Assembly: GCF_000025605.1 (NCBI RefSeq)
Contig: NC_013894.1
Location: 1-64,000, forward strand
DNA from: Thermocrinis albus DSM 14484
GTDB taxonomy: Bacteria; Aquificota; Aquificia; Aquificales; Aquificaceae
DNA length: 64,000 nucleotides
Direction: 5' to 3'
Shown here: positions 91 through 49,602 of the stretch, one piece after another
How positions within the stretch are numbered: position 1 is the stretch's first letter
How the letters are laid out: the number at the start of each line of letters is the position of its first letter
Notes under the pieces: generated by a model
The model's database searches: none
Told to the model about the DNA's origin: nothing
Seen by the model: only the letters and a program-made list of their open reading frames with translations
Made by a program: the position numbers and the translations under genes

Positions 91-101
91 CTCAACTCTT
101 C

Positions 102-340: not shown

Positions 341-359
341 AGGGTCCTATGTGGACCCT
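341..359. promoter_or_regulatory. Perfect 7-bp inverted repeat upstream of the cas operon
   Basis: AGGGTCC (341-347) and GGACCCT (353-359) form a perfect dyad around a 5-nt centre, about 60-75 bp upstream of the predicted operon start. No T-run follows on the + strand, so an operator is more likely than a terminator. The binding protein is unknown; autoregulation by a Calp protein is only a hypothesis. Confidence 0.45.
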
Positions 360-404
360 CTTTACCACTTGATATTATATTATAGCACCGTTTTGGCTTT
401 TGTG

Positions 405-410
405 TATAAT
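405..410 (+). promoter_or_regulatory. -10 box of the calp/cas operon
   Basis: A perfect TATAAT lies 6 nt before the ATG at 417, so the transcript would begin at or next to the start codon (leaderless). No good -35 hexamer is visible at the usual distance, which fits a promoter needing an activator or an alternative sigma factor. Confidence 0.5.
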
Positions 411-416
411 ACTTAT

Positions 417-7357: not shown

Positions 7358-7358
7358 G

Positions 7359-8357: not shown

Positions 8358-8358
8358 G

Positions 8359-9279
8359 ATGAGAAAAGAACTTTACTACCTGAAGGTTCTGACACCCCTC
8401 CATGTAGGCACCGGACAGGGAATGGATCACATTGATCTACCCATTTACAGAGAAGCCCATACAGGATTTCCAGCCATACCCTCTTCCGCCATTAAGGGAA
8501 CTCTCAGAACAGAGGAGATAAAAAAACTCTACATGAAAAAGAAGCAGACCAACAAAGAACTTAAGCTTTCTGAAATAGAGGAACAGCTTGATGGGTTTGA
8601 TCCTGAAGACACAAAAACAGAAGAAGATGATGATATTAAACGGCTTGCGAAAATCTTTGGTAGTAAGAAAGTGGAAGGGGAGGTTGTTTTCACCGATGCA
8701 AGAATACTTCTCTTCCCCGTTAAGTCCCTGAAAGGCATCTATGCTCTGATAACATGCCCCTACGTTCTGGAAAGGTTTGCAGAAGAATCAGGTAAAGAAA
8801 AACCTCATATTGATGATTTATCTGAAAGCTCTTGTATTGTTTTTAAAGACTCACGTAACACGATCAATATAAAGGACAAGAAGGCTGTTGTCCTTGAAGA
8901 GTTTGCCTTTGAAGTTAAACGTGAAGTTGAAGATGATTCCAAAAACACCATTGCGCATCTGTTGCAGGATCCCAATATAGACAAAAAAAGAGTGGTTATA
9001 GTAAGTGACGACGTTTTCACCCACATGGTAAAATCTTTCACAGAGGTTCAAACCCACATAAAGGTAGACATAGAAAAGGGAACGGTAGAAGAGGGGGCTC
9101 TTTGGACAGAAGAGTATGTTCCATCAGAAGCCATCTTTTACTTCTGGATTATAAACTATAGAGATGAAGAGTTTTCAATAGAAAACGGCGAGAACAAAAA
9201 AGTCTTGCAGCTTGGAGGAAACACCAGCACAGGAAAAGGTTTTGTGGAGGTGTGGAATGATGGCAGTCAAAAATCTTGA
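8359..9279 (+). CDS. cmr4: Cmr4, Cas7-like backbone and target RNA cleavage subunit
   Basis: The N-terminus has the Cmr4 pattern TPLHVGTGQGMDHIDLPIYR followed by TGFPAIPSSAIKGTLR. This is the Cas7 RRM core that polymerises along the crRNA and cuts target RNA at 6-nt intervals through a conserved aspartate (the Asp of MDHIDLP, near residue 24-27, is the candidate). The C-terminus has the glycine-rich LGGNTSTGKGFVEV loop. It follows cmr3 by 1 bp and overlaps cmr5 by 23 bp. Confidence 0.94.
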   Translation: MRKELYYLKVLTPLHVGTGQGMDHIDLPIYREAHTGFPAIPSSAIKGTLRTEEIKKLYMKKKQTNKELKLSEIEEQLDGFDPEDTKTEEDDDIKRLAKIFGSKKVEGEVVFTDARILLFPVKSLKGIYALITCPYVLERFAEESGKEKPHIDDLSESSCIVFKDSRNTINIKDKKAVVLEEFAFEVKREVEDDSKNTIAHLLQDPNIDKKRVVIVSDDVFTHMVKSFTEVQTHIKVDIEKGTVEEGALWTEEYVPSEAIFYFWIINYRDEEFSIENGENKKVLQLGGNTSTGKGFVEVWNDGSQKS

Positions 9280-9640
9280 ACAGGAGAGGATGAGGATAGC
9301 TTACGAAAGTGTTATGCGTGTAAAAGGTGAGAACTTTGAGTCCAAATACAGCATCCTTGCCAAAAGGCTCCCGGCGATGATAAGCCACAACGGCCTTTTA
9401 ACGACCCTTGCCTTTTTAAAGTCTAAAGGAAAAGATGAACACAAACGGCTAATAGAAGACATCTGTAAATACTTGAGCCACAGGTTTGGTAATGAAATAA
9501 GATCCTACAAAGAATTAATCAGTATGCTGTTTCAGGCTGATACAACAATGTACCTCTTTTACACCCGTGAAGTTCTTTCCTTTGCGGTATGGCTAAAAAG
9601 AATAGCCGAAGGTGAGCTGAAAAGCGAAAGGGAGGGATAA
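9257..9640 (+). CDS. cmr5: Cmr5, small helical subunit of type III-B complex
   Basis: This small, all-helical protein of 127 residues has the RMRIAYESVMRV start and the KYSILAKRLPAMISHNGLLTTLAFLK segment typical of Cmr5. It forms the inner filament that stabilises target RNA in the Cmr complex. The start is placed at the first of two adjacent ATGs (9257/9260) because GGAGG at 9246-9250 gives normal spacing; the longer in-frame extension upstream overlaps cmr4 further and looks non-native. Confidence 0.88.
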   Translation: MMAVKNLEQERMRIAYESVMRVKGENFESKYSILAKRLPAMISHNGLLTTLAFLKSKGKDEHKRLIEDICKYLSHRFGNEIRSYKELISMLFQADTTMYLFYTREVLSFAVWLKRIAEGELKSEREG

Positions 9641-9641
9641 C

Positions 9642-10496
9642 GTGAAGGTTGAGGACACAGTAAAGTTAATAGCGGATGATAAGACTAAGTTCTCCAACAT
9701 CGCCCTTGCTTTTTACAAATTGAATATCTTCAAATTGGATATCTTCAAATATCTTGAAAAGGATATAAGTGAGATACGAAAGAAGGAATATTTAAAACTA
9801 TTTAAAGACAGCCTCAATTGGGATGAAATAACTTTCATACAAGAAAAGATAACAGACTTATATAAGAGCATCGAAAAAACACACTATGTAAAGTATATAA
9901 AAGCCTATGTAGGCTACCGTTTTGTGTCAGGTATGGGATACCCCTCTCCCATAGAGAACGGTTTTCTGCTACATCACACCTATGGTATTCCTTATATTTC
10001 AGGAGAATCCGTGAAAGGACTAGTAAGATACATGTATATTTACAAAAACTTTACTGAAGAAAATTTCTCTAAAGAACGCCTAAAAGGTCTGGAAGAAGGA
10101 AAGTATCAAGAAAGCGAACTTAATGAAAAAGAGAAAATCTTTGTCAAGCTTTTTGGTACACAAAAAGAAGAAGGTAAGATTGTTTTCTTTGATGCTTACC
10201 CTGAATCCCTCACAGAAAGAAACCTATCTATAGATGTTATGAATAATCACTACGGTGAGTATTATGAGACAAAAGGGGAAAAAGAGCCTGGCGATTGGTA
10301 TAATCCTAACCCTGTATTCTTCCTGACATTGGAGAAAGTTACCTTCATTTTCAGAATAGGTATTGAGAAAGATGTTGAAGAAGCCGAAAAATTACTTGAT
10401 CAGACTTTGGAGCTTCTTAAAGAAGGTCTTGAACTATTTGGACTAGGAGCAAAAAGGAGGAAAGGCTATGGGTGGTTCAGAGTCCAAGAAGCATAA
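9642..10496 (+). CDS. cmr6: Cmr6, Cas7-like subunit of type III-B complex
   Basis: This 284-residue RAMP protein ends with the G-rich loop FGLGAKRRKGYGWFRV and contains GIPYISGESVKGLVR, both Cmr6-like features. It occupies the crRNA 3' side next to Cmr1. It starts with GTG after GGGAGGG. The 29-bp overlap with csx1 indicates coupled translation. Confidence 0.9.
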   Translation: MKVEDTVKLIADDKTKFSNIALAFYKLNIFKLDIFKYLEKDISEIRKKEYLKLFKDSLNWDEITFIQEKITDLYKSIEKTHYVKYIKAYVGYRFVSGMGYPSPIENGFLLHHTYGIPYISGESVKGLVRYMYIYKNFTEENFSKERLKGLEEGKYQESELNEKEKIFVKLFGTQKEEGKIVFFDAYPESLTERNLSIDVMNNHYGEYYETKGEKEPGDWYNPNPVFFLTLEKVTFIFRIGIEKDVEEAEKLLDQTLELLKEGLELFGLGAKRRKGYGWFRVQEA

Positions 10497-11190
10497 GGTT
10501 ATTATAGCACCTTGGGGAGATTGTAAAAGTTGGAAATCCGTCGAATATAAATACAAGAGTGACGAAATAAAGGCAAATACAACTCTTAAGGTTCTTTGTC
10601 ATGACCTTAAACCCGATGGTGTGTTGGTACTTGTCCCTGACACACTTTTTGGCAGTAACAAGCTTTTTGGTAATGGTAGTGCTAAAGATAAAGTAGGCAG
10701 GTACGAGGATCTTATTAACAGGGTCAGGGAGAAGGTATATGTTGTTACCGAAAAGAAGGTTGAAAGAAGATTGCACTTTACAGATACCATGGAGATACTA
10801 TTGAAAGGTTGGTTTGTTTCCGAGCTGTTGGATCTATATCAACCAAATATAGATATGGAAGAAGGAATAAACCTTAGTGAGTTGAAGAAATTTACTGAGC
10901 GTATATACAAAGATAGATGGACCGCTGCTAGAATTAATAGGGATCTGGGAGAATTAGAAGAAAGTCTCAAAAAATTAGAAGCAGATAAAGAATGGAAACT
11001 ATACGCAGAAGTTATTGGGAAGGATGAAAATGAAAAAGAACCTCAAGTTGACCCCAGAAACCTAGTAGCTCATTCTGGACTTCTCTACCATACTACTGAG
11101 ATAAAACGTGATGGTGACGAGCTTTATGCGAGACTAAGGGAAGGGCTGAAGGATGAGATCAAAAAACAGCTACCCTGTCAGGATATTTGA
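10468..11190 (+). CDS. csx1: Csx1-like CARF-HEPN ribonuclease
   Basis: The N-terminal half matches the Csx1 CARF sensor: KVIIAPWGDCKSWKSVEYKY, then GVLVLVPDTLFG near residue 53-64. The C-terminal part has a compact HEPN domain with the catalytic RxxxxH motif RNLVAH (R197, H202). Csx1 proteins bind cyclic tetra-adenylate and then degrade RNA non-specifically. At 240 residues it is short compared with Csx1 proteins of 400 or more, so the HEPN part is minimal. It is the second predicted cA4 effector of the locus, so a single alarm would trigger both RNA decay and CalpL proteolysis. Confidence 0.85.
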   Translation: MGGSESKKHKVIIAPWGDCKSWKSVEYKYKSDEIKANTTLKVLCHDLKPDGVLVLVPDTLFGSNKLFGNGSAKDKVGRYEDLINRVREKVYVVTEKKVERRLHFTDTMEILLKGWFVSELLDLYQPNIDMEEGINLSELKKFTERIYKDRWTAARINRDLGELEESLKKLEADKEWKLYAEVIGKDENEKEPQVDPRNLVAHSGLLYHTTEIKRDGDELYARLREGLKDEIKKQLPCQDI

Positions 11191-11226
11191 TTTTGGTAAG
11201 TTTATAGTAAACAAGGAGGTGAAAAG

Positions 11227-12216
11227 ATGGGCGGAATAACGCTAACTATCATCACCCACAAGGCAAGCAGCCTAAACTACGGAGAGACAGTGGGGAACGT
11301 CTCCATTTTAAAGAAAGTAACCCTAGGAGATGGTACACAGAAGACCTTTGTTTCCGATAAGGCTCTTAAGTATGATATGAGAAGGAAGGGAAAGGAAGAG
11401 AAGGGTTGGAAACTGCTTGATGAACTGTTAAAGGAGTATATAGAAAAAAGTCAAAAAGATGGAAAACTGGACGTAGACGAGTTTGGAAGAAATCTTGTAG
11501 AGAATTACGAGGAGTTTGATCTTTTTGGGGGACTTTTCACAAATCTAAAAGACAAGAAAAACAAGGAAGTATCACTAAGCTACGGAGATAGTGTAAAGAG
11601 AGTATGTGCTGTAAAAGTTACTTACGCCTTTTCTGTCTCAGATTTTAAAGGGGACATGAATTTTCTCAATAACATAGACGCTTATAACAGGTATATAAAG
11701 CACATTGAGGGAAAAAAAGCACAAGCTATAGCCCAAACGGAAGAACATACATCCCACTACGTATATACCATAACTATAGACCTTGACAGGGTAGGCGTTT
11801 GGGAAAAGGAAGATGGAACTCGTGAGCCTATCCTGGATCCACAAAAAAGAGCAAAGAGAGTGAAGGATCTCCTGGACATAGTGATGACCTTAAACAGACA
11901 GATAAAGGGAAGATGGGAGAATCTTTCACCCGTGTTTGTAGTGGGAGGCCTCTTCGGTACTAAGCATCCCTTCTTTATGAACGCTGTTGATGCTTCCGAA
12001 ATGAACGGAAGGCTCTTTCTCCAAATAGATAGACTGAGAGATGCCATTGACATGGTCCCCGAAAACGAAAGAAGTAAGGTTAAGATAGGAATGCTCTCCG
12101 GGATTTTTATCAACGAAGAGGATATAAAGAGTAAGTTACAAGCCAAGTCTATCGGTGAACTTTTTAGGGAACTTAAGCAGGAGGTGGACAACTACTATGG
12201 AGTTTCTGAAGGTTGA
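11227..12216 (+). CDS. cas7: Cas7 (Cst2/DevR family), type I-B Cascade backbone
   Basis: This 329-residue protein fits the Cas7 DevR/Cst2 family: N-terminal ITLTIITHKASSLNYGETVGN, central VVGGLFGTKHPFFMNAVDA, and a conserved helical end. Six or so copies would coat the crRNA in the type I-B complex. It follows a 36-bp gap after csx1, the largest inside the operon, with GGAGGTG before the ATG. The type I-B genes could therefore have some separate transcription, although no strong promoter is seen. Confidence 0.88.
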   Translation: MGGITLTIITHKASSLNYGETVGNVSILKKVTLGDGTQKTFVSDKALKYDMRRKGKEEKGWKLLDELLKEYIEKSQKDGKLDVDEFGRNLVENYEEFDLFGGLFTNLKDKKNKEVSLSYGDSVKRVCAVKVTYAFSVSDFKGDMNFLNNIDAYNRYIKHIEGKKAQAIAQTEEHTSHYVYTITIDLDRVGVWEKEDGTREPILDPQKRAKRVKDLLDIVMTLNRQIKGRWENLSPVFVVGGLFGTKHPFFMNAVDASEMNGRLFLQIDRLRDAIDMVPENERSKVKIGMLSGIFINEEDIKSKLQAKSIGELFRELKQEVDNYYGVSEG

Positions 12217-12853
12217 GCTCTTAAGCCCCTGTGTTACTTTCAAAACTCCCCTCTCTCTGAAAGGCATAGAAACATACCCTTTACCGCCTCCATCCACGGT
12301 GATAGGACTTCTTTACACGGCTTCAGGTAGAAAGTGGAACGGAGAGAGGTTTTCTTTGTCTATACAGGGAGACTACGAAGCCATCTTCAGGGATTACATA
12401 AGACTGAGAAAATACAATAAAGATGAAAAAAAGCTTGAAGTTTTACCTACTGAGATTCCAAAACTTTACAACTTTAAGTGTGTTGTTCATATAGGTGCGG
12501 AAAGGCAACTCATTGAGGAGTTTTTAAAGGCGTTAAAATCGCCTTCAATATATCTTTACTTGGGAGGTGGAGAGTATCCTGTTCTCGTGAGAGATGTGAA
12601 GATAGTCAATGCTTGGGAGTATTCTGGTGAAAGGGAACTTAAGATGAACGCTTTTGTGTCAGAAGCAGCAAAGGACTTATTCTACAGGTCTAACTTCATA
12701 CAGTTTAGGGTGTCCACCTTCTGCAGAAAGGAGAAAGGAGAAAGAGTATGTGACTGGTTAAGCGTATACTACGTCCAGAAAGGTGAAAGTGTTGAAGGAA
12801 ATATTCTCGTAGATGAAGAGGGGGATATAGTATGGTTGTTAGGTTCTATGTAA
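12197..12853 (+). CDS. cas5: Cas5 (Cas5t), type I-B Cascade subunit
   Basis: The 218-residue protein begins MEFLKVELLSPCVTFKTPLS and contains YPLPPPSTVIGLLYTASG, the classic Cas5 N-terminal RAMP motif, followed by the GGGEYPVLVRDVKIV loop. Cas5 binds the crRNA 5' handle in Cascade. I placed the start at the ATG at 12197 (GGAGGTGG upstream, 20-bp overlap with cas7) because the longer frame adds residues unlike the family. Confidence 0.87.
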   Translation: MEFLKVELLSPCVTFKTPLSLKGIETYPLPPPSTVIGLLYTASGRKWNGERFSLSIQGDYEAIFRDYIRLRKYNKDEKKLEVLPTEIPKLYNFKCVVHIGAERQLIEEFLKALKSPSIYLYLGGGEYPVLVRDVKIVNAWEYSGERELKMNAFVSEAAKDLFYRSNFIQFRVSTFCRKEKGERVCDWLSVYYVQKGESVEGNILVDEEGDIVWLLGSM

Positions 12854-14313
12854 GAGACTGGGTTAGCGCTTCTGCCGCAGTTGGTCTTTTAAAAGCTTTA
12901 GAAAAGTTAGGTCAAGAGCCGAAGGAGTTTATAGATGGTAACTCCCTTATCTTTGAAGAGAAAGACATTATAGAGATTTTCCCTTCTGCTTTTACAAAAA
13001 AACTTATAGATGTTTCAAGTCAGAAGAACCCTAAAAAAGACTCCTTTGTAGATCGTGCCTATTCTGTACTTTCTTTTCTTCAAAAAAATTTTTACTCTAA
13101 CAGTCCATTGAGCAATCCATCTTCTGTTCCAAAGAGACTTGAGGAGAAGAGTAAGGAGTTGGAAGATCTGTACAGGTCAGACCCAGATAAGGCGGTTTTT
13201 GAGCTCGTCAAGCGCTTTGTTGGTGATACGTTTAAAAAGATTCTGGAGAGAGAGACGTCGGACCACACTTGCTTCTTCTGCGGAGAAAGAAAAGCCAGCA
13301 TTCATAACGGTGAGCCCAAAACCTTTGAAGCAACTAACTTTACGCCTCTTTCTGCAAGTCCCAATACGGTGGAAAACTTATTTTATAACGGTAAAAACAA
13401 CCTTTATCTTTGTTCTGTATGCGAGATAGTCTTTTATTTCGCAGGCTTCGGTTTTACTAAAGTGGATAAAATGGATAATAGGTATATTTTCGCTTATGTC
13501 TCCGATATTAAAGAAACTTTAAGACTTAACAATACTTTAGAATACTATAAAGGCTTCAATAAGGAGTTTGTAACGTCCTTTTTGAAAGATTTGGAGCATC
13601 ATAAATCAAGATGGATCCTTGAAAATATATATATTGTTGAAGTCGAAAAAGTATCTAAAGTACAATCAAATATCTACTCCTTTTCTATACCACCGAGGGT
13701 AGCAAAGGCTATGAAGGAATACCTCCCTAAATATCCTAAAACTCTCGAACCTGTTTTCAATGAATTTCTGAAATATATTTATTTTGGAAGAAGTCTTTAC
13801 CAGCTTCTTTTTGAGATTCTCTATGGATATTTTCACGAAGAAGAACTGCCAGATTCTAAAGATTCTAAAAAAATAACAGATGCTTTAAGATTAGGTATGA
13901 GGCTAGCAAAAGGAAATAAAGGTTTGTATCCTTCTCTTCTTTTCCTATCAAAATTTCAGGAGGTGGTAGAGATGAAAGACAAGAGCTTTGTAGAAAAGCA
14001 AGTAGGATGGGCGTATAGGGAAGGTCTCCAGTTGAAAAATGCCCTCCTTAAAGAGTTAGGTGATAAGGCACTGGACAGAATAAGATCCATATCTTACAGT
14101 ATTCTTGAGGCTATAAGAAGGAGGGATATAGATGCTTTTCAACAGAATCTAATAAGAGCCTACCTTAGTGTGGAGAGGGAAATACCGAGAGTTTTCGTTG
14201 ATGCTCTTAAGGATGAAAGCTTTAGCCGGATAGCTTACGCCTTTCTTATAGGATTAAACGGCACAGAGAGGAGAGAAGAAGATGGAGGAGAAGCTGAGGA
14301 AACTATGGGCTAA
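12832..14313 (+). CDS. cas8: Cas8 (Cst1/Cas8a1-like) large subunit of type I-B Cascade
   Basis: This 493-residue protein is assigned by its place between cas5 and cas3, its size, and a zinc-finger insert: CFFCGE (C147, C150) with CSVC (C194, C197). That insert is typical of the Cst1-type large subunits, which recognise the PAM on foreign DNA and recruit Cas3. Sequence conservation in this family is low, so the exact subtype is less certain than the role. It overlaps cas5 by 22 bp and cas3 by 32 bp. Confidence 0.8.
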   Translation: MVVRFYVRDWVSASAAVGLLKALEKLGQEPKEFIDGNSLIFEEKDIIEIFPSAFTKKLIDVSSQKNPKKDSFVDRAYSVLSFLQKNFYSNSPLSNPSSVPKRLEEKSKELEDLYRSDPDKAVFELVKRFVGDTFKKILERETSDHTCFFCGERKASIHNGEPKTFEATNFTPLSASPNTVENLFYNGKNNLYLCSVCEIVFYFAGFGFTKVDKMDNRYIFAYVSDIKETLRLNNTLEYYKGFNKEFVTSFLKDLEHHKSRWILENIYIVEVEKVSKVQSNIYSFSIPPRVAKAMKEYLPKYPKTLEPVFNEFLKYIYFGRSLYQLLFEILYGYFHEEELPDSKDSKKITDALRLGMRLAKGNKGLYPSLLFLSKFQEVVEMKDKSFVEKQVGWAYREGLQLKNALLKELGDKALDRIRSISYSILEAIRRRDIDAFQQNLIRAYLSVEREIPRVFVDALKDESFSRIAYAFLIGLNGTERREEDGGEAEETMG

Positions 14314-15988
14314 GTCAGACGGCACAACGATAAGGGAACACACCGACAAACTTCTTGAAAATCTTAAAAAACTCAAAGAAGAATATGGAGACATCATAGA
14401 GGAGAGAATACCCGATAGTATGAGAGGTATTTTTTGGCAAACTCTTGAACTAGCTTGTGAGTATCATGACTATGGAAAGGTGCACTATCACTTTCAGAGG
14501 AAGTTGGGAAACAAAAATGTAAAACCTCCTAAAGGTAACCTACCTGAGGTGAGACATAACCTTCTTTCCCCGGCCTTTTTGCCAGAAGACAAAAATCCTG
14601 TTGTGAGAAAACTGGCCGCTCTTGCTATAATTCATCATCATAAGCATGACGCAGGAAAAGAAGAAGTAGAAAAAGTTCGTGAGGTTCTTGAAAAAGAGTT
14701 TGGAAAAGAGCTGAACTATAAAAACCTGATAAAGTATAGGGAAGATGAAATTCTTAAAAAGTTAGCTAAAGACAAAAATTTGGAGGAGGAAAGTGTTAGA
14801 AAGTTTTACATAATGTTAAAGGGTTGCCTTCTTAGAATAGATCATGCCAGCAGTAATAGGTATTCTCCTTATGTTGAAACTTACAGGAAGAAGGAGCCTG
14901 AAGGAAAAGTTAGAGAGTTTTTGCAAGGTAAAGGTTCAGATTTTAACGATCTTCAGAGGTTTGTCCTAGAAAACAGAGAGGACAATCTGCTTGTGTGTGC
15001 TTCTACCGGGTATGGAAAGACAGAAGCCGGTTTTATTTTTCTGAAGGATAAAGGTTTCTTTACGTTACCCGTCAGAGTTTCTGCCAACGCCATTTACGAA
15101 AGGGCAAAGGGAGTTTTCGGGGAAGAACTGGTGGGGCTTCTTCACAGCAGTTCTCTATTGGAGATGGCACTAAGTGAGGATGAAGCTAACATATACTGGG
15201 AAAACATCGTACTTGATCACCATCTTACTAGCAACTTTGCCAAGCCTATAATAGTATCCACTCCGGATCAAATAGTTCCCTTTGTTTTTAAATATCCCGG
15301 TTACGAAAAAATAGCGTCTCTTTTAGCTTATTCTCGTGTAGTTTTTGATGAACCTCAACTGTTTGAACCACACACCATGGGTTTTCTGGTAAAAGGTATC
15401 GAAAAGATAACTCATCTGGGTGGTAAGGTTATGGTTATGTCAGCTACTCTTCCTCCCTTTGTGGAAGAGGATCTAAGCTTTCTAGATTTTAAAAGGGGAA
15501 AGTTTCTCACAGAGAAAGTCAGGCATAACCTAAAAGTTGTCCGTCGATCAATAAAGGACTTTACCGAGGATATAAGAAGATTAGCGGAGGAAGGAAAGGT
15601 TCTCGTAGTAGTGAACACTGTTAAGAGAGCTATAGAACTTAAGGAAATTCTCCCTGAGGCTCAACTTCTTCACTCCCAGTTTATACTTAAGGACAGAAAA
15701 GAGAAAGAAAAACAGATAAAAGACTTCTTCGATAATGCAGACAGAGGTGTGTGGATAACTACTCAGTTGGCAGAAGTCTCCTTGGACCTTGATGCTGACT
15801 TTTTGGTAACGGAGCTTTCTACTGTGGATTCTCTCCTTCAGAGGATGGGGAGAGTGAACCGAAGGGGCGAAAAACCTGTGGACAATCCTAATGTTTTTAT
15901 CCTTACCGAAGAGTGTTCGGGAATAGGTAGCGTTTACAGGGAGGCTATACACGAGGAAACGAAAAAATTTTTAGAGATGGACCAATAA
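14282..15988 (+). CDS. cas3: Cas3 helicase-nuclease, main reading frame (ends prematurely)
   Basis: This 568-residue frame holds an N-terminal HD nuclease (YHDYGKVHYHF near 61-71; IIHHHKHDAG further on) and a DExD/H helicase. The helicase motifs are STGYGKT (241-247), DEPQ (356-359), the SATLPP motif III, and QRMGRVNRRGE motif VI. Cas3 is recruited by Cascade to nick and unwind target DNA. All core motifs precede the stop at 15986. The C-terminal tail normally following TKKFL is encoded in the -1 frame (see next entry), so the product is either truncated or completed by frameshifting. Confidence 0.9.
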   Translation: MEEKLRKLWAKSDGTTIREHTDKLLENLKKLKEEYGDIIEERIPDSMRGIFWQTLELACEYHDYGKVHYHFQRKLGNKNVKPPKGNLPEVRHNLLSPAFLPEDKNPVVRKLAALAIIHHHKHDAGKEEVEKVREVLEKEFGKELNYKNLIKYREDEILKKLAKDKNLEEESVRKFYIMLKGCLLRIDHASSNRYSPYVETYRKKEPEGKVREFLQGKGSDFNDLQRFVLENREDNLLVCASTGYGKTEAGFIFLKDKGFFTLPVRVSANAIYERAKGVFGEELVGLLHSSSLLEMALSEDEANIYWENIVLDHHLTSNFAKPIIVSTPDQIVPFVFKYPGYEKIASLLAYSRVVFDEPQLFEPHTMGFLVKGIEKITHLGGKVMVMSATLPPFVEEDLSFLDFKRGKFLTEKVRHNLKVVRRSIKDFTEDIRRLAEEGKVLVVVNTVKRAIELKEILPEAQLLHSQFILKDRKEKEKQIKDFFDNADRGVWITTQLAEVSLDLDADFLVTELSTVDSLLQRMGRVNRRGEKPVDNPNVFILTEECSGIGSVYREAIHEETKKFLEMDQ

Positions 15989-16398
15989 CTGAGGAGGAAA
16001 AACTGGGACTCTTAGAGGAGGTGTATAAAAAAATAGAGCAGGTAGATCAGGGCTACAAAGAGGATTACGAAAAGGCAAAGAGATTTATAGAAAACTTATG
16101 GGAAACTGACGAGTTTAAGTTGGAAAAAGAAAAAGCTCAGCAGCTTTTTAGAGATATATACACAAAGACAATTATTCCTGAAAAGTTCAGAGATGATCTG
16201 GAGAATGGACTTTTAAGAGAGTACATAAACAACAAGGATATTAATGAGAGGGTAAAACTTTTGGCAAAAATTCTTGAGTACACTGTGACAGTTCCTGAAT
16301 ATAAAGTGAAGGGGAAACAACTGGAACCTGTTAAGAAACTGAAAAATGTGTACTGGCTTAAGGCGGATTATTCTCCTGAGACAGGAGTAGAGGAGTAG
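15931..16398 (+). pseudogene. cas3: Cas3 C-terminal tail in the -1 frame
   Basis: After the cas3 stop, the -1 frame (open from 15931) continues with RDGPITEEEKLGLLEEVY and about 125 helical residues to 16398. This is the kind of tail expected after a Cas3 HEETKKFL segment. The crossover lies in 15931-15985 and includes an A6T5 run (15962-15972). A one-base loss, sequencing error, transcriptional slippage or programmed -1 frameshift would all explain it. Independent translation is less likely: the GTG at 16021 directly abuts its AGAGGAGG, which is too close. The fragment itself has no catalytic motifs. Confidence 0.75.
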
Positions 16399-27790: not shown

Positions 27791-29164
27791 TCACAGACCC
27801 TCTTCCCTCTTGGCCAGTTCTATCTGCTCTTTAACTCGCTCTTTTGATGTACCACCGTAAGTTTGGCGCCTGTCTGCCACCACGAGAGGATCCAAAAGTT
27901 TTAACACGTCTTCTTGAAAGAGAGGAGAGAAGGTCCTAAGATCCTCTAAGGTAACATCCTGAAGACTCCTACCTTCTTCCACCAGCTTGGCCACCAGAGA
28001 GCCCACGATACGGTGCGCCTCTCTAAAAGGCACACCTTTACCTACCAGATAGTTGGCCAGATCGGTGGCTAACGTAAAGCCTCCGGCTGCTGCCCTCAGT
28101 TTGTCTTCTCTCACCTTCAGGCCCTCCAACACCAGAGAGGCACCTTTCAAACACCCCTTCAGGGTATCCAGACTGTCAAAAAGGGGTTCCTTGTCCTCCT
28201 GAAGGTCCCTGTTGTAAGCCATAGGCAGTCCCTTTAGGACCGTCAGGAGGCTCAGAAGGTTTCCATATAATCTCCCTGCTTTACCTCTTATGAGTTCAAG
28301 GACATCAGGATTTTTCTTTTGGGGCATGATGGAACTGCCGGTACACAGCCTGTCAGGAAGTTCCACAAAACCAAACTCTTCACTGGACCACAGGATGAGA
28401 TCCTCCGAAAGGCGAGAGAGATGCATACCACACACCGCACAACTGTACAGAACATCCAAAAGGAAACCCCTGTCTCCGGTGGCGTGCATAGAGTTGCGCA
28501 GAACAGATCTAAAGCCCAGTTTTTGAGCTGTGAAAAATCTGTCTAAGGGAAAGTCTACTCCCGCCACAGCACCGCTACCGAGAGCTAAAGCATCCACCCT
28601 TCTAAAAGCGTTTACAAATCTATCTGTATCTTCCAAAAAGGCCTCCCGGTAAGCCAGAAAATAATGAGCCAAACGTATAGGCTGTGCCCTCTGCAGATGA
28701 GTGTAAGAAGGAGCCACCACTTCCAGTGTTTCTTCTGCCAACCTCACCAACCGTCTTCTAAGGCCAGATAGGAGATCCAAAATATGATTTATCTCCTCCT
28801 TCAGGTAAAGTCTTAGATCAGTCACCACCTGATCGTTACGGGACCTCCCCGTGTGAACCTTTCCTCCCATAGGACCCAGCTCCTCAATAAGGGCTTTCTC
28901 TATGTTCATGTGAACATCTTCTAACTCCCTTCTGAAACTAAACTCACCTTTTGTGATCTTTTCTTTAACCTTCAAAAGAGCTCCTTTTATACTTTCGGCT
29001 TCCTGCTGGGACAGAATGCCGGCTTTCTGAAGGGTCTCTACGTGAGCCAGACTTTGCTGGATATCGTACAGCGCCAGTCTTTTGTCAAAGCTCACCGACT
29101 GAGTAAACTCTTCCACAAACTCTTCGGTAGGTTCTCTGAAACGTCCTTCCCAAGCCTTCTCCAT
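27791..29164 (-). CDS. argH: Argininosuccinate lyase
   Basis: This 457-residue fumarase-superfamily enzyme shows VHTGRSRNDQVVTDLRLY, SYTHLQRAQPIRLAHYFL and the signature loop GSSIMPQKKNPDVLELIRGK. It splits argininosuccinate into arginine and fumarate, the last step of arginine synthesis. A - strand TAAGAT (+ 29172-29177) lies 7 nt before the ATG, so its mRNA may be leaderless. Confidence 0.97.
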   Translation of the reverse strand: MEKAWEGRFREPTEEFVEEFTQSVSFDKRLALYDIQQSLAHVETLQKAGILSQQEAESIKGALLKVKEKITKGEFSFRRELEDVHMNIEKALIEELGPMGGKVHTGRSRNDQVVTDLRLYLKEEINHILDLLSGLRRRLVRLAEETLEVVAPSYTHLQRAQPIRLAHYFLAYREAFLEDTDRFVNAFRRVDALALGSGAVAGVDFPLDRFFTAQKLGFRSVLRNSMHATGDRGFLLDVLYSCAVCGMHLSRLSEDLILWSSEEFGFVELPDRLCTGSSIMPQKKNPDVLELIRGKAGRLYGNLLSLLTVLKGLPMAYNRDLQEDKEPLFDSLDTLKGCLKGASLVLEGLKVREDKLRAAAGGFTLATDLANYLVGKGVPFREAHRIVGSLVAKLVEEGRSLQDVTLEDLRTFSPLFQEDVLKLLDPLVVADRRQTYGGTSKERVKEQIELAKREEGL

Positions 29165-29184
29165 GAAGAATATCTTATTTAGTT
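29165..29184. promoter_or_regulatory. 20-bp divergent promoter region between argH and ttuA
   Basis: Only 20 bp separate the two divergent ATGs. On the - strand TAAGAT (29172-29177) is 7 nt from argH; on the + strand TATCTT (29171-29176) is 8 nt from ttuA. The -10 boxes overlap and there is no room for ribosome sites, so both transcripts would be leaderless and mutually exclusive at any one moment. Confidence 0.5.
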
Positions 29185-30120
29185 ATGAGAAGATGCGTCA
29201 AGTGTAAAGAGAAGGCATCCATATATCTGCCTCATCACCGCCTATCTCTCTGTAGCCAACACTACGTGGAATGGTTTGAAGAGAGGGTCCAAAGGACCAT
29301 AAAGCAGTTTGGTATGATGGAAAAGAGAGACAGGGTACTGGTAGCCGTATCGGGGGGTAAAGACAGCCTGTCCCTCTGGCAGGTTCTCCACAGGTTAGGA
29401 TACGAGGCGGATGGCCTTTACATAGATCTGGGTATAGGAGATTATTCGGCTAAATCTAAGGAGCTGTGTAAGAAATTTTCCGAGAGGATAGGCAGAAAGT
29501 TACACATAGTGGACCTCTCACAGGAACTGAGTACCATTCCCCAGATAAAACAGCTGGACTCAAGGCCTGCCTGTTCTTTCTGTGGCAGTATCAAACGCTA
29601 TTATATGAATCTTTATGCTAAGAAGCTGGGGTACACGGTGGTGGCTACGGGCCACAATCTGGATGATGAGACGGCGGTTCTTCTCTCCAATGTGCTGAGT
29701 TGGAACCTCCAGTATCTGGAGAGACAGACACCTCTTTTGGAGGAAAAGGATGGTTTTGTGCGCAAGGTAAAGCCCCTTTGCCTCCTCACAGAGAGGGAAA
29801 CGGCCCTTTACGCAGTGGTGACCAACATAGATTACATAGAAGAGGAATGCCCCTTTGCGGAAAACGCCACATCCATTGACTACAAAAAGATAATGGCCCA
29901 GATAGAGGAGAAGAGTCCCGGCACCAAGCTGAGGTTTTATCTAGAATTTTTGCGCAAGGTAAGGCCAGCTTTAAGTTCTGGCACCCAACCAGTAACCTTA
30001 AAACCCTGTAGTGTCTGTGGAGAACCCACCGTGGGAGAGATATGCTCCCTATGTAGGATCAGGAGAAAACTTAGCGTAAAAACTCAAAACATCACAGAGC
30101 TCCCGGACCCTTCTCCTTAA
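29185..30120 (+). CDS. ttuA: tRNA-5-methyluridine(54) 2-sulfurtransferase
   Basis: This 311-residue enzyme is of the TtcA/TtuA family. It has an N-terminal zinc finger (CVKC and LCSQH), the PP-loop ATP site VSGGKDSLS, conserved cysteines that bind the Fe-S cluster (ACSFCGS near 129-133 and ECPFAENA near 227), and a C-terminal zinc finger (CSVCGEPTVGEICSLC). The two zinc ribbons favour TtuA over TtcA. It makes 2-thioribothymidine at tRNA position 54, a heat adaptation. Its 3' end overlaps coaE antisense by 72 bp. Confidence 0.88.
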   Translation: MRRCVKCKEKASIYLPHHRLSLCSQHYVEWFEERVQRTIKQFGMMEKRDRVLVAVSGGKDSLSLWQVLHRLGYEADGLYIDLGIGDYSAKSKELCKKFSERIGRKLHIVDLSQELSTIPQIKQLDSRPACSFCGSIKRYYMNLYAKKLGYTVVATGHNLDDETAVLLSNVLSWNLQYLERQTPLLEEKDGFVRKVKPLCLLTERETALYAVVTNIDYIEEECPFAENATSIDYKKIMAQIEEKSPGTKLRFYLEFLRKVRPALSSGTQPVTLKPCSVCGEPTVGEICSLCRIRRKLSVKTQNITELPDPSP

Positions 30121-30660
30121 AGAGTCCAGATCTCCCCTGTTGTCTATTATGTAGTGGGCCTTCTTAAGTTTCTCTTCGGGAGGCATCTGCATCCGCCAGC
30201 GCCTTTCAAAATCCTCTTCCGTGAAACCTTTTCTGATGGCCCTCTCTTTGCACGTAGCGTAGTCTGCATACACCACCACCAGAAAGTGGTACCTTCTGTA
30301 ACTGCCTTTCTCTACCAGTAGGGATGCCTCTACCACCATAACGTCACCTGGTGAAAGCTTCCTCTCCTCCTGCTGTAGGTAACTGTAAAGAGCTGTGTGG
30401 GTTATCTCCTCCAGGATCCTCAGTTTCTCCTTATGGGCAAAAACCTCGTCTGCCAGTTTTTTGGTGTCTACACTTCCGTCCTCTTTCAGTATACTTTCGC
30501 CGAAGGCAGATACCACCTTTCTGTAAACTTCCCCTCTCTCTTGGTAAAAGCTCTTTATGATGGTGTCAGCATCGTAGACCTTAAACCCACACTCCCTAAA
30601 AAGGGTGGCTACAGTGGACTTTCCGCTCCCTATGTTTCCCGTAAGTCCCACCGTGAGCAT
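30049..30660 (-). CDS. coaE: Dephospho-CoA kinase
   Basis: The 203-residue enzyme has the P-loop GLTGNIGSGKSTVATLF and the CoaE DADTI motif. It performs the last step of coenzyme A synthesis. I start it at the ATG at 30660, giving MLTVGLTGN; an upstream frame start would overlap the divergent gene. A - strand TATAAT (+ 30667-30672) sits 6 nt before this ATG. Confidence 0.95.
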   Translation of the reverse strand: MLTVGLTGNIGSGKSTVATLFRECGFKVYDADTIIKSFYQERGEVYRKVVSAFGESILKEDGSVDTKKLADEVFAHKEKLRILEEITHTALYSYLQQEERKLSPGDVMVVEASLLVEKGSYRRYHFLVVVYADYATCKERAIRKGFTEEDFERRWRMQMPPEEKLKKAHYIIDNRGDLDSLRRRVRELCDVLSFYAKFSPDPT

Positions 30661-30681
30661 TACATCATTATAATAACTGTT
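30661..30681. promoter_or_regulatory. Overlapping divergent promoters between coaE and aspC
   Basis: The 21-bp gap contains ATTATAAT. It reads as TATAAT on the + strand (30669-30674, 7 nt before the aspC ATG) and as TATAAT on the - strand (30667-30672, 6 nt before the coaE ATG). The two boxes share four bases, and both -35 regions would lie inside the opposite gene. Confidence 0.65.
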
Positions 30682-31863
30682 ATGCTTTCGGAGAGAGTAA
30701 AACATATAAAACCAGCACCTACCTTAGCACTCACAGCCCGTGTCAATCAGCTGAAGGCTCAGGGTGTGGACATAATAGGATTCGGTGCAGGAGAGCCGGA
30801 CTTTGACACCCCCGACTTTATCAAGGAAGCCTGTATAAAAGCCCTCAGGGAAGGAAAAACCAAATACACACCCTCCGCAGGTATACTGCCTTTGAGAGAA
30901 GCTCTTTCCGAGAAACTAAAGAAAGAAAACAGAGTAGAATACAGCCCCTCCCAGATAGTGGTGACGGCAGGAGCCAAGATGGCTCTGTATCTGGTCTTCT
31001 TGGCTGTCCTCAACGAAGGTGATGAGGTTCTTTTACCTTCCCCCTACTGGGTTTCTTATCCAGAACAGATCCAGCTGTGTGGCGGTAAACCTGTAGTGGT
31101 ACCCCTTTCGGAGGACAAGGGTTTTGTATTGACGGCGGAAGACCTCCTGCCCTACATAACGGAGCGCACCCGTATGCTGGTGCTTAACTCACCTTCCAAT
31201 CCCACAGGTGCCGTTGTGCCACCTAAGGAGCTGGAACGTATAGCCCAGCTGTGTGTAGAGAGAAGGATATTCATAGTATCTGACGAATGTTACGAAGCTT
31301 TCGTCTACGAAGGTGAGTTTGTGAGTGTAGCTTCTCTGTCTCCCGAGGTGAGAGATATAACCTTTACTGTTAATGCCTTTTCTAAAACTTTTTCCATGAC
31401 AGGATGGCGCGTTGGGTACGTAGCATCCCCCGAGCCCTTTGCCCGCGTTATCGCTGACCTCAACAGCCAGACCCTTTCCAACGCCACCAGTTTTGCCCAG
31501 TACGGTGCCTTAGAGGCCCTCACCAATCCACAGGCGCGTAGCTTTGTGGAGAAGATGAAAGAAACCTTCCGTGAGAGAAGAAACACAGCCCTCAGACTCC
31601 TCTCCCAAATTCCCCACGTGAAGGTGGTAAAACCTAGCGGAGCCTTCTATATCTTCCCCAACTTCCGTTACTACTCCTCCCTCCTTGGTTCCGACCTGGC
31701 TTTAGCCGATTATCTGGTGGAAAAGGGAAGGGTGGCCTGCGTTCCCGGTTCGGCTTTTGGAGCTGAAGGCTACCTCCGACTCTCCTACTGCCTTTCTTCT
31801 CAGGAGATAGAAGAAGGCATAGGCAGGATAAAAGAGGCCCTTTCACAGCTGCTTCACGCATAA
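30682..31863 (+). CDS. aspC: Aspartate aminotransferase (class I/II, PLP)
   Basis: This 393-residue class I aminotransferase has an N-terminal GAGEPDFDTPDFI, a central SPSNPTGAV and the PLP-lysine motif NAFSKTFSMTGWRVGY with Lys at about residue 235. It belongs to the thermophilic AspAT-I gamma type, which transfers amino groups between aspartate and 2-oxoglutarate. Related substrates or prephenate activity are possible. The ATG at 30682 is preferred because it gives the usual MLSERVKHI start. Confidence 0.92.
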   Translation: MLSERVKHIKPAPTLALTARVNQLKAQGVDIIGFGAGEPDFDTPDFIKEACIKALREGKTKYTPSAGILPLREALSEKLKKENRVEYSPSQIVVTAGAKMALYLVFLAVLNEGDEVLLPSPYWVSYPEQIQLCGGKPVVVPLSEDKGFVLTAEDLLPYITERTRMLVLNSPSNPTGAVVPPKELERIAQLCVERRIFIVSDECYEAFVYEGEFVSVASLSPEVRDITFTVNAFSKTFSMTGWRVGYVASPEPFARVIADLNSQTLSNATSFAQYGALEALTNPQARSFVEKMKETFRERRNTALRLLSQIPHVKVVKPSGAFYIFPNFRYYSSLLGSDLALADYLVEKGRVACVPGSAFGAEGYLRLSYCLSSQEIEEGIGRIKEALSQLLHA

Positions 31864-31870
31864 CCCACCG

Positions 31871-31881
31871 TAGGTCACCTA
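31871..31881. promoter_or_regulatory. 11-bp palindrome upstream of the pilus tip operon
   Basis: TAGGTCACCTA is an 11-bp dyad 24 bp before the first start codon of the PilY1/minor pilin operon. It is followed by an AT-rich stretch and an AGGAGGAAGG ribosome site. A regulator site is possible; the length is close to what chance allows. Confidence 0.3.
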
Positions 31882-31904
31882 GATTAAAAAACAGGAGGAA
31901 GGAA

Positions 31905-32180
31905 ATGAGAGCTTTACTCTCTTTGCTGACAGTTTTATCCATAAGTGCTGCTCAAGACAATCTTATGGTGGTAGGCAGGGTTTTGGGATATGATCCTAGG
32001 AAGGGTATCCTGAGGGTGGATGTAGAAAGTGGTGCGTGCAGAGGCGTGCAAGAGTTTACCTATACAAAAGGCATGAACCCATCAATCCTTGTCAATAAAA
32101 GGGCGATGATCCTCCTAGATTCTTCTCACTGTGAAGAAGGTTCTAAGGTGGTTCAAATAATAGTGGAGGGTGAAAGATGA
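31905..32180 (+). CDS. Small exported hypothetical protein, first gene of minor-pilin operon
   Basis: This 91-residue protein has a signal peptide (MRALLSLLTVLSISAAQ) and a small beta-rich mature domain with two cysteines (GACRG and SHCEE), probably a disulfide. No family is recognised. Its stop overlaps the PilY1-like gene as ATGA, so it is likely part of pilus assembly or tip biogenesis. AGGAGG precedes the ATG. Confidence 0.75.
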   Translation: MRALLSLLTVLSISAAQDNLMVVGRVLGYDPRKGILRVDVESGACRGVQEFTYTKGMNPSILVNKRAMILLDSSHCEEGSKVVQIIVEGER

Positions 32181-35100
32181 ATAGCCGGAGCTCTTTGCTC
32201 CTCTTTGTAACCCTTATGCTTTTTCTCTTCTTCCCTTCCTCTCAGCGCATAAAGGCGGCCAGTATCAACAATTACTGTTACGTCCCCCCCTTCGTGGGAA
32301 CTGCAGCAGCGCCCAACGTAATGCTTCTTATAGACGTAAGTGGTTCCATGTCTTGGTGTGCTTACAATCCGCAAAGTAATAAAAGTTTCTGTTGTACCAA
32401 CTCTTCAGGCTGTGGATGGACTTATAAAGGCAATGAGGAAGGCTACTTTGACCCCAACAAAGTATACAGATATAATTCATCACAAGGATACTGGGAAGAA
32501 ACTACGGGAACTCCAGCACCTTGTCCAAAAAGTGCGTATACATGCTCTGTGTTGGGGTGTGTTGAGACTATTGACAAAACTAAGATCTACTCAGGTAGCT
32601 GTCTTAACTTTCTGTACATGACGAGGATAGACTTAGTAAGATGGGCTCTAACGGGAGGAACGCCAGATAGCTGTCCAACGGATGTAAATGAAAGTCCCCA
32701 AAACAATATAAGAAGGTGCGATCCAGAAACTTACGGTCAGCCAGGTAGTCAAGTGAGTTGTGACAGTTATGGGTGTGTTCTCAAATCGTATCTTGGTGCT
32801 AGGGTGAAAGTTCCTTGGAGCAGGATAAACTCCGCACTACTTTTCCAGTTTAAAAACCTTTCCCTCAAGCCTCGCATAGGTGCTATGTTCTTCAGCGATG
32901 CTGGCATTAGAGATAAGGCAAGCGTTTACATAGGAGATTTTACAGGGAGCAACAACTTTGATTCTCTTAATCCTTATAAAAACACTATAACCGCCGTAAA
33001 CACTGAAGATCCATATGGTGCTACTCCCACGGCACCTGCTCTGTGGGATACTTACAACTACTTTGCACAGCAAAATCCTCAGTACGGAGGTCTCAAACCT
33101 CAGAGTGGACAAGGTGATCAATGGAAAAACCCCATGTACCAGTGTTTTGATTCCAACAACGATGGTCAGTGTCAAGGTAGTGAGCTTAAACTAGTTCCGT
33201 GTGCCAAAAACTTCGTGATACTTATGACGGACGGCCAGTGGAATGTAGGAGGACCACCTGATAATGTTGACGTGGCATGCAGTATAGATTACGGTTTTGA
33301 GCAGTATTCTGCAGATCCAGTGGTTCCCGCTTATTGGCTTCACAAGAAGGGATTTACCAATCAAAAGACGGGTATATACTCCTACGTGGAGGCTGTTTAC
33401 GGTATAGGACTCTTCCTGGGAGGTACTGGAGAGAGAGCTCTTAAGAATGTAGCTATGTATGGTTCCTTTGATAGGAGCAAGAGCTGGCCAGACAATCTGA
33501 GTGGTTATCCACAGAATACATGTGTTATGGATGACTGTGGATATGGAAAAGGTAGTGGATGTACTCCTCTTCCACCCTCTTCTCCAGACTGGGATAAAAA
33601 CGGCGATAATGTACCCGATACTTTTTACTCAGCATCCAATGCCATTGAAATAAAACAGGCTATTTACAATGCTTTCTTGGACATTCTACGTAGGTCTTCC
33701 TCAGGAGCTACGGTTGCGGTTCTCACCTCCAGATATCAAACGACAGCTACAGTTCTTCAACCTCTTATGCTTCCCAGCTATACCACACCTACAGGTGATA
33801 CCATCAAGTGGCTGGGTTTCTTTAGAGGTTACTGGGTTGACCCTTCGCAACAGTTTAGAGAAGATACTGTCATGGACAAGATACTTGTTTTACTGGGTAC
33901 TTATAGAGACAAGATTTTTCAGTACTTCTTTACATCTTCAGGAGAGACAAAGGCAGCTATAGTAACAGACCAGTGTAGTAAAGAAGCAGAAAAGACGCCT
34001 CTTGGACCCACCAACCAGGGACTTCATCCAACCCTCATGTTTGACTGTAAACTAGCCATAACTGACAAGAACAGTAGAAGGATCTATTACCACGATGGTA
34101 CAGGTAACCTAAAAGAATACAAAGGTAACCTCAGTGATGTGCGCAGCATATGGTCTTTGGTGGACAATCAAACACCTCAGGACATAAGCTCAATAGTAGA
34201 CTACCACCGTGGGGCATACTTTAACCCACCTCCTAACAATTTCGTGAAGAGAAACAGATATTTCGACGTATCAAACTTCTGCCCTTCTTATCAACCTGGA
34301 TCTAACACCACATGGAAGTTGGGTATGGTGAATGCTTCCACACCCTCTGTTATCAGTAACCTTCCCCTTAACCTCAAGTGGATTTTTGTTTACAACGACG
34401 ATACTTACAGGCAATTTGTAACTTCTGATGATTATAAAAACAGGACTGGTATAGCGGTAATTGGATCATATGACGGTATGCTTCATTTCTTTAGAGTAGG
34501 TTATATGAAACTCACCAACGACACACAGGCCCCCACCAAGGCGGTAAACGCACCTAACAACGACGCACAGGATCTTTTAGAAAGGGAAGAGTTTGCCTTT
34601 ATACCTTACAACGCTCTACCTTATATGCTGTGGTATGGGACAAACGACTATAATAACTGTCCTGTACCAATTGTTGATTACAGAAGTTATGCCTTTGATG
34701 CTTCCATAAACGGTGATCCTAATGCTCAAAAAACCAAAGACTCTTGGAGAACCTTACTGCTGGGTGTTATGGGTCTTGGTGGTAAACGGCTGGGTAATTT
34801 TAGCTCTTCCGTATTTTTGCTGGATGTTACAGATTTTATGAAGAATCCTTCTCAAAATATGCCTAAGCTCATGTGGGAGGTAAAGCTTTCCAACGGTACT
34901 TTAACCACTTCTTTCCCTGCAGTCTTGAGGTTAGGAGAAAGAGACAAAAACGGTGAGTTTTGGGTTGTTCTCGGTGATGGTCCTAAAGATCCTTACGCTG
35001 ACAGCTATGATAAGTTTGTACAGAATCCTAAGCTTTACTTCATAAACGCGAGAACAGGTCAGGTAAGGGAGGTTAACATACCTATACCTCCCAACACCTA

Positions 35101-36067
35101 CGCTGCGGTAGGGGACATATACACTGCCGATCTAGATTTTGATGGTGCGGACGATGTGATATACTTCGGTATGTACGGCTACGATAAGAACAACAAAGTG
35201 TGGGGAGGTTTCTACAGAGTAGCTCTTAAACAAGGACAGGGATATAGATCTATAACCAGCATATCAAGCAGCGACATCAAGGAAGCCGTTAGTCTCAGCA
35301 CTTTTAAAACCAACAACAACACACCACCTGTATTTGGAAGACCAGCGGCTACATTAGATGATAATGGTAATCTCTGGGTATATCTGGCAACAGGTCTTTA
35401 CACAAGTTCCCAACACAGGATCCTCACATACTCTAACTATATCATAGGTTTCAAAGATCCATGTTGGGATTCCAACAACAGAACCTTCCTACAGAACTGT
35501 GGAACCTCCGTGAAACAGAGTGATCTTTTGGATAGAACTAACTTCCAGCTCACTTTTTCGCAGGTGTTGGAACAGGAAAATGTTTGTTATTGTGATAGTA
35601 ACGGTTGCGGCAGCCAGACAGTTCCTGTAAGAGTTGTTCCTGATAACTGGAACGATGCTATGAATCTACAGGGTAAAAATGGATGGTACATAACCCTTAA
35701 CGGTATGATGTCTTACTCTTCTGTATCCATATACGGTGGTATAGTTTACGTAAGTGCCTACCAACCCAACGAAGATGTGTGTAGTGCAGGAGGAAACACG
35801 TATGCCTACGGCCTATACTATCTTTCTGGAACGCCTTACTTTGACATACCTTTTGTAGCAGTGGGTAATGTTAGTGGTAACAAAGTCAATCCTTCCATAC
35901 TCCTCGGTTTAGGCGCATCTCCTTATGGGCAAGTCTTTCAGGTATCTCAGACAAGTTCTAAGGGTGCTGTTCTTGTGTTCCAAACATCCACAGGATCATT
36001 GGGTACAAAACAGATCCAAACAGCAGAAGAACAGGCTACGAGGTTCATACTATGGATAAACAAATGA
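32177..36067 (+). CDS. pilY1: PilY1/PilC-like type IV pilus tip protein with VWA domain
   Basis: This 1296-residue exported protein has a signal peptide (about 1-30). A von Willebrand A domain follows with MIDAS motif DVSGSMSW (near residue 53), and a second acidic motif is seen in LMTDGQWN. Two candidate calcium loops are DSNNDGQCQG and DKNGDNVPD. The C-terminal half resembles the PilY1 beta-propeller, including YTADLDFDGADDVIYFG. PilY1 proteins cap the pilus, with roles in adhesion, surface sensing and retraction. Many cysteine pairs suggest extracellular disulfides. It lies directly before four minor pilins, the usual priming set. Confidence 0.88.
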   Translation: MNSRSSLLLFVTLMLFLFFPSSQRIKAASINNYCYVPPFVGTAAAPNVMLLIDVSGSMSWCAYNPQSNKSFCCTNSSGCGWTYKGNEEGYFDPNKVYRYNSSQGYWEETTGTPAPCPKSAYTCSVLGCVETIDKTKIYSGSCLNFLYMTRIDLVRWALTGGTPDSCPTDVNESPQNNIRRCDPETYGQPGSQVSCDSYGCVLKSYLGARVKVPWSRINSALLFQFKNLSLKPRIGAMFFSDAGIRDKASVYIGDFTGSNNFDSLNPYKNTITAVNTEDPYGATPTAPALWDTYNYFAQQNPQYGGLKPQSGQGDQWKNPMYQCFDSNNDGQCQGSELKLVPCAKNFVILMTDGQWNVGGPPDNVDVACSIDYGFEQYSADPVVPAYWLHKKGFTNQKTGIYSYVEAVYGIGLFLGGTGERALKNVAMYGSFDRSKSWPDNLSGYPQNTCVMDDCGYGKGSGCTPLPPSSPDWDKNGDNVPDTFYSASNAIEIKQAIYNAFLDILRRSSSGATVAVLTSRYQTTATVLQPLMLPSYTTPTGDTIKWLGFFRGYWVDPSQQFREDTVMDKILVLLGTYRDKIFQYFFTSSGETKAAIVTDQCSKEAEKTPLGPTNQGLHPTLMFDCKLAITDKNSRRIYYHDGTGNLKEYKGNLSDVRSIWSLVDNQTPQDISSIVDYHRGAYFNPPPNNFVKRNRYFDVSNFCPSYQPGSNTTWKLGMVNASTPSVISNLPLNLKWIFVYNDDTYRQFVTSDDYKNRTGIAVIGSYDGMLHFFRVGYMKLTNDTQAPTKAVNAPNNDAQDLLEREEFAFIPYNALPYMLWYGTNDYNNCPVPIVDYRSYAFDASINGDPNAQKTKDSWRTLLLGVMGLGGKRLGNFSSSVFLLDVTDFMKNPSQNMPKLMWEVKLSNGTLTTSFPAVLRLGERDKNGEFWVVLGDGPKDPYADSYDKFVQNPKLYFINARTGQVREVNIPIPPNTYAAVGDIYTADLDFDGADDVIYFGMYGYDKNNKVWGGFYRVALKQGQGYRSITSISSSDIKEAVSLSTFKTNNNTPPVFGRPAATLDDNGNLWVYLATGLYTSSQHRILTYSNYIIGFKDPCWDSNNRTFLQNCGTSVKQSDLLDRTNFQLTFSQVLEQENVCYCDSNGCGSQTVPVRVVPDNWNDAMNLQGKNGWYITLNGMMSYSSVSIYGGIVYVSAYQPNEDVCSAGGNTYAYGLYYLSGTPYFDIPFVAVGNVSGNKVNPSILLGLGASPYGQVFQVSQTSSKGAVLVFQTSTGSLGTKQIQTAEEQATRFILWINK

Positions 36068-49572: not shown

Positions 49573-49602
49573 TGGGAAAAATTTTAAACTATAATTAGAG
49601 AC
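49573..49602. promoter_or_regulatory. Divergent promoters between the TPR gene and dapA
   Basis: In this 30-bp gap the + strand has TATAAT (49590-49595), 7 nt before the dapA ATG. The - strand has TAAAAT (49581-49586), 8 nt before the TPR gene. Neither gene has room for a ribosome site, so both mRNAs look leaderless. Confidence 0.6.

Follow-up and report, generated by a model that had tools for sequence, protein, structure and literature searches.

A candidate bidirectional −10 element in the 21-bp gap between the divergent genes coaE and aspC of Thermocrinis albus

Earlier publications describe bidirectional promoters as well as leaderless genes, and divergent leaderless promoters that lie side by side have also been reported. 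At the bidirectional promoters of Escherichia coli, 18, 10, and 23 bp are given as common start separations, and opposing polymerases are stated to be unable to occupy such promoters simultaneously; five promoters tested there had too little basal activity for competition, and this set in once transcription in one direction was raised (PMC12825309). A symmetry rule for the −10 element has been described, with a range of 7–25 bp used for the start separation (available text of PMC10268837). Among leaderless genes, those designated TA-led account for 20.7–32.4% of the genes in two out of five Aquificae genomes, according to the accessible part of PMC3160421. Here we describe a locus from the Aquificaceae in which both themes appear to meet. 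It is located in the first 64,000 nucleotides of the chromosome of Thermocrinis albus DSM 14484 (NC_013894.1; referred to below as the window), a genome that consists of one contig of 1,500,577 bp.

The coaE/aspC gap and its palindromic core

The locus comprises the following features:

30049–30660, minus strand: coaE, dephospho-CoA kinase, 203 amino acids (TIGR00152; codon model)
30661–30681, no strand: coaE/aspC intergenic gap, 21 bp between the start codons, as read in the sequence
30667–30674, no strand: ATTATAAT, palindromic core common to both −10 hexamers and identical to its own reverse complement
30667–30672, minus strand: TATAAT, putative −10 for coaE, an exact match 6 nt 5' of the coaE ATG
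30670–30675, minus strand: TATTAT, possible alternative −10 for coaE, 9 nt 5' of the coaE ATG and in an 18-bp register with the plus-strand TATAAT
30669–30674, plus strand: TATAAT, putative −10 for aspC, 7 nt 5' of the aspC ATG
30682–31863, plus strand: aspC, aspartate/PLP aminotransferase, 393 amino acids (best match NF041091; codon model)

Gene calls based on open reading frames missed coaE, because an open frame passes through coaE into aspC; a codon model comparing all six frames separated coaE from this frame extension of aspC. From the starts given above, coaE (11.6) and aspC (15.9) both score as coding, and an aspC start at position 30397 was rejected since the extension through coaE scores −12.7 and is hence non-coding. 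The coaE product matches TIGR00152 with 137.1 bits (cut-off: 65.55), while the best match of aspC (NF041091; 406.1 bits) stays under the model cut-off of 550, so that the name aspC is meant at the family level only. A similarity search in E. coli with the coaE/aspC locus returned no match. At its 3'-end, coaE overlaps the convergent TtuA-like gene on the plus strand by 72 bp (30049–30120). Downstream of aspC, a 1296-amino-acid open reading frame (32177–36067) and the 91-amino-acid one preceding it matched no NCBIfam family; judged by eye, the larger one may be von Willebrand/PilY1-like. Elsewhere in the window, the GC content is 0.39 over positions 1–16000, compared with 0.43–0.49 beyond, and there is a strong positive GC skew.

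The start codons of coaE (ATG, 30660–30658, minus strand) and aspC (ATG, 30682–30684, plus strand) can be read directly in the sequence, and an earlier note on this DNA had correctly located between them an 8-bp core that provides a perfect −10 on both strands, 6 and 7 nt away from the two ATGs. The two perfect hexamers lie on opposite strands and have four base pairs in common (30669–30672); used as a pair, they predict start sites 21 bp apart, while TATTAT (minus) combined with TATAAT (plus) predicts a separation of 18 bp. No usable −35 element accompanies them (the best matches are 3/6 on the aspC side and 2/6 on the coaE side), an extended −10 (TG) is lacking on either side of the core, and no Shine-Dalgarno sequence precedes either ATG, within the gap or immediately outside it. 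Each gene would depend on the −10 element alone. The predicted RNA starts fall at or beside A30660 for coaE and at or beside A30682 for aspC. In the start region of coaE (30658–30668, minus strand; ATGATGTAATG), an out-of-frame two-codon reading frame, ATG ATG TAA, overlaps the coaE ATG; it would be relevant only if transcription started farther upstream than predicted.

By itself, the 8-mer ATTATAAT is unremarkable: it occurs twice in the window, with 0.80 occurrences expected, and 20 of 100 shuffles reach this count. Its placement is remarkable, as just 815 out of 300,000 composition shuffles of the 21-bp gap yielded a perfect TATAAT 5–11 nt away from both ATGs. A sigma-70 scan of positions 29000–32300 reported six sites (2.5 expected), from which the shared core is absent because it is without a −35 on both sides. 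One of the reported sites (9/12) is found inside coaE on the plus strand (30467–30495), and this promoter-like sequence could provide aspC with a long leader.

From these features, we consider it probable that the gap constitutes a −10 element that works in both directions, for two genes that are leaderless or nearly so. In the mechanism that we propose, polymerase carrying the housekeeping sigma factor would melt a single A/T palindrome in either orientation and would begin transcription of coaE or aspC at or beside the A of the respective ATG. Both directions would be used, from start sites that we infer, and the two polymerases would presumably exclude each other. The pair itself probably arose through a rearrangement that brought two genes of this sort into head-to-head orientation at a single −10 element.

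Leaderless-type starts in T. albus and its relatives

Judged by the placement of hexamers, leaderless starts are usual in the T. albus genome. Within a sample of 464 kb (the window plus 20 further stretches), TATAAT with at most one mismatch is positioned 5–11 nt before 86 of 438 starts, compared with 26.3 for a background of equal width. The same peak appeared with a cruder gene call, which placed the hexamer at 6–10 nt in 64 of 430 starts. In the whole genome, TATAAT-N6-ATG is present 20 times and the reversed pattern 10 times. The other five sampled Aquificaceae of the main set carry the hexamer signal at 17.9–22.0% of their starts, and it is also present in genome G015 (50 of 184 starts; background 21.3). 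No hexamer signal was detected in two genomes from another family, G036 (13 of 181 starts; background 18.3) and G039 (11 of 177; background 24.7), or in E. coli (1 of 164 starts; background 5.3); Thermus pTT27 was uninformative, with the hexamer at 3 of 148 starts and one compact divergent pair out of eight.

The base preceding the ATG is C or T at 74 of the 82 hexamer-bearing starts versus 214 of the 354 other starts, and a pyrimidine in this position would help RNA synthesis to begin at the A of the ATG. At aspC this base is a T, in line with the leaderless-type starts; at coaE it is an A, which is uncommon among them (4 of 82) and counts against a leaderless start of coaE. Matches to the −35 sequence 5' of the 82 leaderless-type starts are close to the shuffled expectation, so that reliance on the −10 element alone is common for starts of this type.

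We then compared each −10 element across species. Upstream sequence was available for 20 Aquificaceae aspC loci (a 21st ends at a contig edge), and 16 of them possess an exact TATAAT 6–11 nt upstream; the exceptions are L052, L056, L064, and L069. None of nine aspC loci taken from the order's other families has TATAAT, a loose negative result because in all nine the alignment places something other than a start codon at this position. For coaE, the hexamer with at most one mismatch is present 5–11 nt upstream in 8 of 23 Aquificaceae loci, in an alignment that has a triplet other than ATG at six of the 23 starts; the match is exact in T. albus only, and the remaining 15 loci have no hexamer within one mismatch at these distances. 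Leaderless starts gain support from this comparison, and the case is firmer for aspC than for coaE. The divergent, overlapping leaderless promoters claimed in the earlier note are supported by the position of the hexamers, the missing −35, extended −10 and Shine-Dalgarno sequences, the conservation at aspC and the genome-wide accumulation before start codons; the claim is weaker for coaE.

Changing neighbours and compact divergent gaps

A survey of 30 coaE and 30 aspC loci with 1.5-kb flanks (one locus of each gene was without upstream sequence, and eight further coaE matches yielded no locus) found the two genes together in a single one, that of T. albus. In 11 of the 23 Aquificaceae coaE loci, T. 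albus included, a coding-like open reading frame starts 14–43 bp away on the opposite strand; in L029, and in L032 at the shorter gap, this partner begins with GTG. A Pfam scan of the neighbours, from which L027 and L032 were left out, identified these divergent partners of coaE as DUF190 (G002 and G004), a 2-thiouracil desulfurase/DUF1722 protein (G012), an E1 dehydrogenase (G007), an NAD epimerase (G011), a cytidylyltransferase (G019), and GatB (G010); a short open reading frame in G016 resembles cytochrome c under the Pfam cut-off. Not all of these divergent coaE gaps carry a −10 on both strands. A compact divergent neighbour of aspC was found in two of 20 loci, those of T. albus and G007, and in the latter aspC stands opposite an AIR-synthase-related (PurL-like) gene.

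Gaps of this kind are frequent in the family. Start codons of divergent ATG pairs lie 14–40 bp apart in 61 of 180 cases in six Aquificaceae samples, compared with 2 of 29 for the two Hydrogenothermaceae sampled (Fisher p 0.002) and 2 of 20 for E. coli (p 0.04), where the two compact pairs stand unchecked against annotation; G015 contributes one such pair out of 12, and Thermus pTT27 one out of eight. These numbers have to be read with the knowledge that our procedure favours short gaps in every genome because it picks the closest ATG pair; T. albus itself yields 22 of 57 compact pairs, or 23 of 57 when gaps below 14 bp are dropped before the closest pair is chosen. Leaderless use alone was rejected as a predictor of compact pairs, as G015 displays the leaderless signal and yet has one compact pair out of 12.

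A neighbouring gap in the window has the same layout:

29165–29184, no strand: 20-bp gap between argH (minus) and the TtuA-like tRNA thiolation gene (plus), adjoining the coaE/aspC locus

It contains the weak hexamers TAAGAT/TATCTT (8/12) in an 18-bp register. Two more compact divergent ATG pairs are present in the window at 49573–49602 (30 bp) and 61033–61060 (28 bp), both with A/T-rich centres.

Among the 23 compact gaps sampled from the T. albus genome, 13 carry hexamers on both strands (at least 9/12; 2.62 in composition shuffles) and 11 have overlapping hexamers (2.09 in shuffles); the coaE/aspC gap is the sole one with a 12/12 score. Both hexamers are perfect, anywhere in the gap, in five compact gaps over the six Aquificaceae genomes. 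Reversed gaps also score high, with 8 of 23 versus 13 of 23 forward in T. albus, and 14 of 49 versus 25 of 49 forward in four genomes, so that A/T-rich, roughly symmetric centres explain much of the −10 signal. We therefore do not rest the class on −10 content alone; compactness is the firmer result, and the −10 excess over A/T richness is uncertain. The best registers in 25 gaps predict a start separation of 18 bp in nine, 21 bp in three, and 23 bp in three, and reversed gaps likewise favour 18 bp (8 of 14), as the symmetry of the motif alone would. Partners change here as well: of 15 relatives of the 23 T. albus compact pairs none has kept the partner, and in four of them a different divergent open reading frame lies within 45 bp. 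These 15, taken by best-hit orthology from sampled stretches with upstream room (approximately one-eighth of each genome), include six without an ATG near the aligned start, which were hence left unscored for the −10.

We tentatively extend the reading of the coaE/aspC gap to the family, as an idea that is somewhat less probable than its opposite: a bidirectional core of 14–40 bp may be a standard divergent promoter of the Aquificaceae. The geometry of polymerase on a shared, symmetric −10 would set the distance between the start codons, leaderless initiation would let the gap shrink to little beyond the −10 element, and the core would survive rearrangements by swapping partners, as might be the case for coaE with its at least six other kinds of neighbours.

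Competing explanations and comparison with known systems

The uneven conservation of the two hexamers could mean that only the aspC direction is a real promoter, in which case the TATAAT facing coaE would be a side effect of the palindrome, and coaE would be transcribed weakly or from within aspC. The 16 of 20 loci with TATAAT before aspC against eight of 23 before coaE (one exact) speak for this, as do the many two-strand matches that A/T-rich centres yield in the reversed-gap controls and the inherent near-symmetry of TATAAT noted in the available text of PMC10268837. However, coaE stands head to head with aspC and must have a promoter within the gap or close to it, it is without a Shine-Dalgarno sequence that would serve a leader, and it has a perfect hexamer at a leaderless distance; we regard this explanation as unlikely. 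Somewhat less likely still are ordinary leaders, with transcription starting inside the neighbouring genes and the core being incidental. The sigma-70-like site within coaE (30467–30495, plus strand) would suit such a scheme, and A/T-rich sequence does generate −10 look-alikes by chance, but neither ATG has a Shine-Dalgarno sequence, and the positional signal is strong before aspC family-wide and across the T. albus genome.

The earlier note had gone further and linked CoA synthesis and aspartate metabolism in a see-saw, with competition of polymerases at the core as a selected regulatory connection. Aspartate feeds pantothenate and CoA synthesis, which fits the idea, as does the four-base-pair overlap of the hexamers. 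Opposing polymerases are likewise unable to bind together at such promoters, as far as the available part of PMC12825309 describes them. Against it, coaE and aspC adjoin in T. albus only among the 30 loci of each gene, genes of at least six other kinds lie opposite coaE in relatives at a distance of up to 43 bp, and, according to the same text, the bidirectional promoters tested in E. coli, five in number, had a basal activity too low for competition. The two directions at coaE/aspC most likely fire independently at basal activity; given this and the lack of conservation of the pair, we infer no metabolic see-saw and consider the claim highly improbable. The reading that we prefer remains a bidirectional −10 element with two leaderless or nearly leaderless genes, in which a complete divergent promoter would fit into 21 bp.

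The family-wide compact layout with its changing partners is the part that deserves the attention of specialists. If the class is real, leaderless genes together with a bidirectional −10 would explain near-touching divergent genes in small thermophile genomes and offer a simple natural system for testing interference between oppositely oriented polymerases. Full-text searches, whose coverage leaves out most subscription journals, returned no title on divergent leaderless genes of Aquificales that use a common −10 element.

Several described systems resemble the coaE/aspC locus in part. In Mycobacterium tuberculosis, the divergent genes prpD/Rv1129c are both leaderless by mapped starts, a property that is predicted for coaE/aspC; the available portion of PMC3898074 leaves a shared −10 unstated and gives no start distance. 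The TA-led leaderless genes, including those of Aquificae (PMC3160421), and genes of Deinococcus-Thermus (PMC12340547) have, in the accessible text, a −10 that sits just 5' of the start codon or adjoins the open reading frame, with no leader. A −10 approximately 6–8 nt before the start characterizes TA-led genes, and the distances are 7 nt at aspC and 6 nt at coaE. As far as their available text goes, both reports concern single genes, and divergent or bidirectional terms were not found in that of PMC12340547. The closest relatives of the arrangement proposed here are the bidirectional promoters of Warman, Grainger, and colleagues, at which one near-symmetric −10 is used on both strands (available parts of PMC12825309 and PMC10268837). 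The predicted separation of 21 or 18 bp falls within the 7–25 bp range of PMC10268837; 21 bp lies outside the common values of 18, 10, and 23 bp in the accessible text of PMC12825309, and the 18-bp register is also present via TATTAT. Unlike these promoters, as they are described there, coaE/aspC has two perfect hexamers and no −35, and its divergent starts are predicted to give rise to two leaderless mRNAs.
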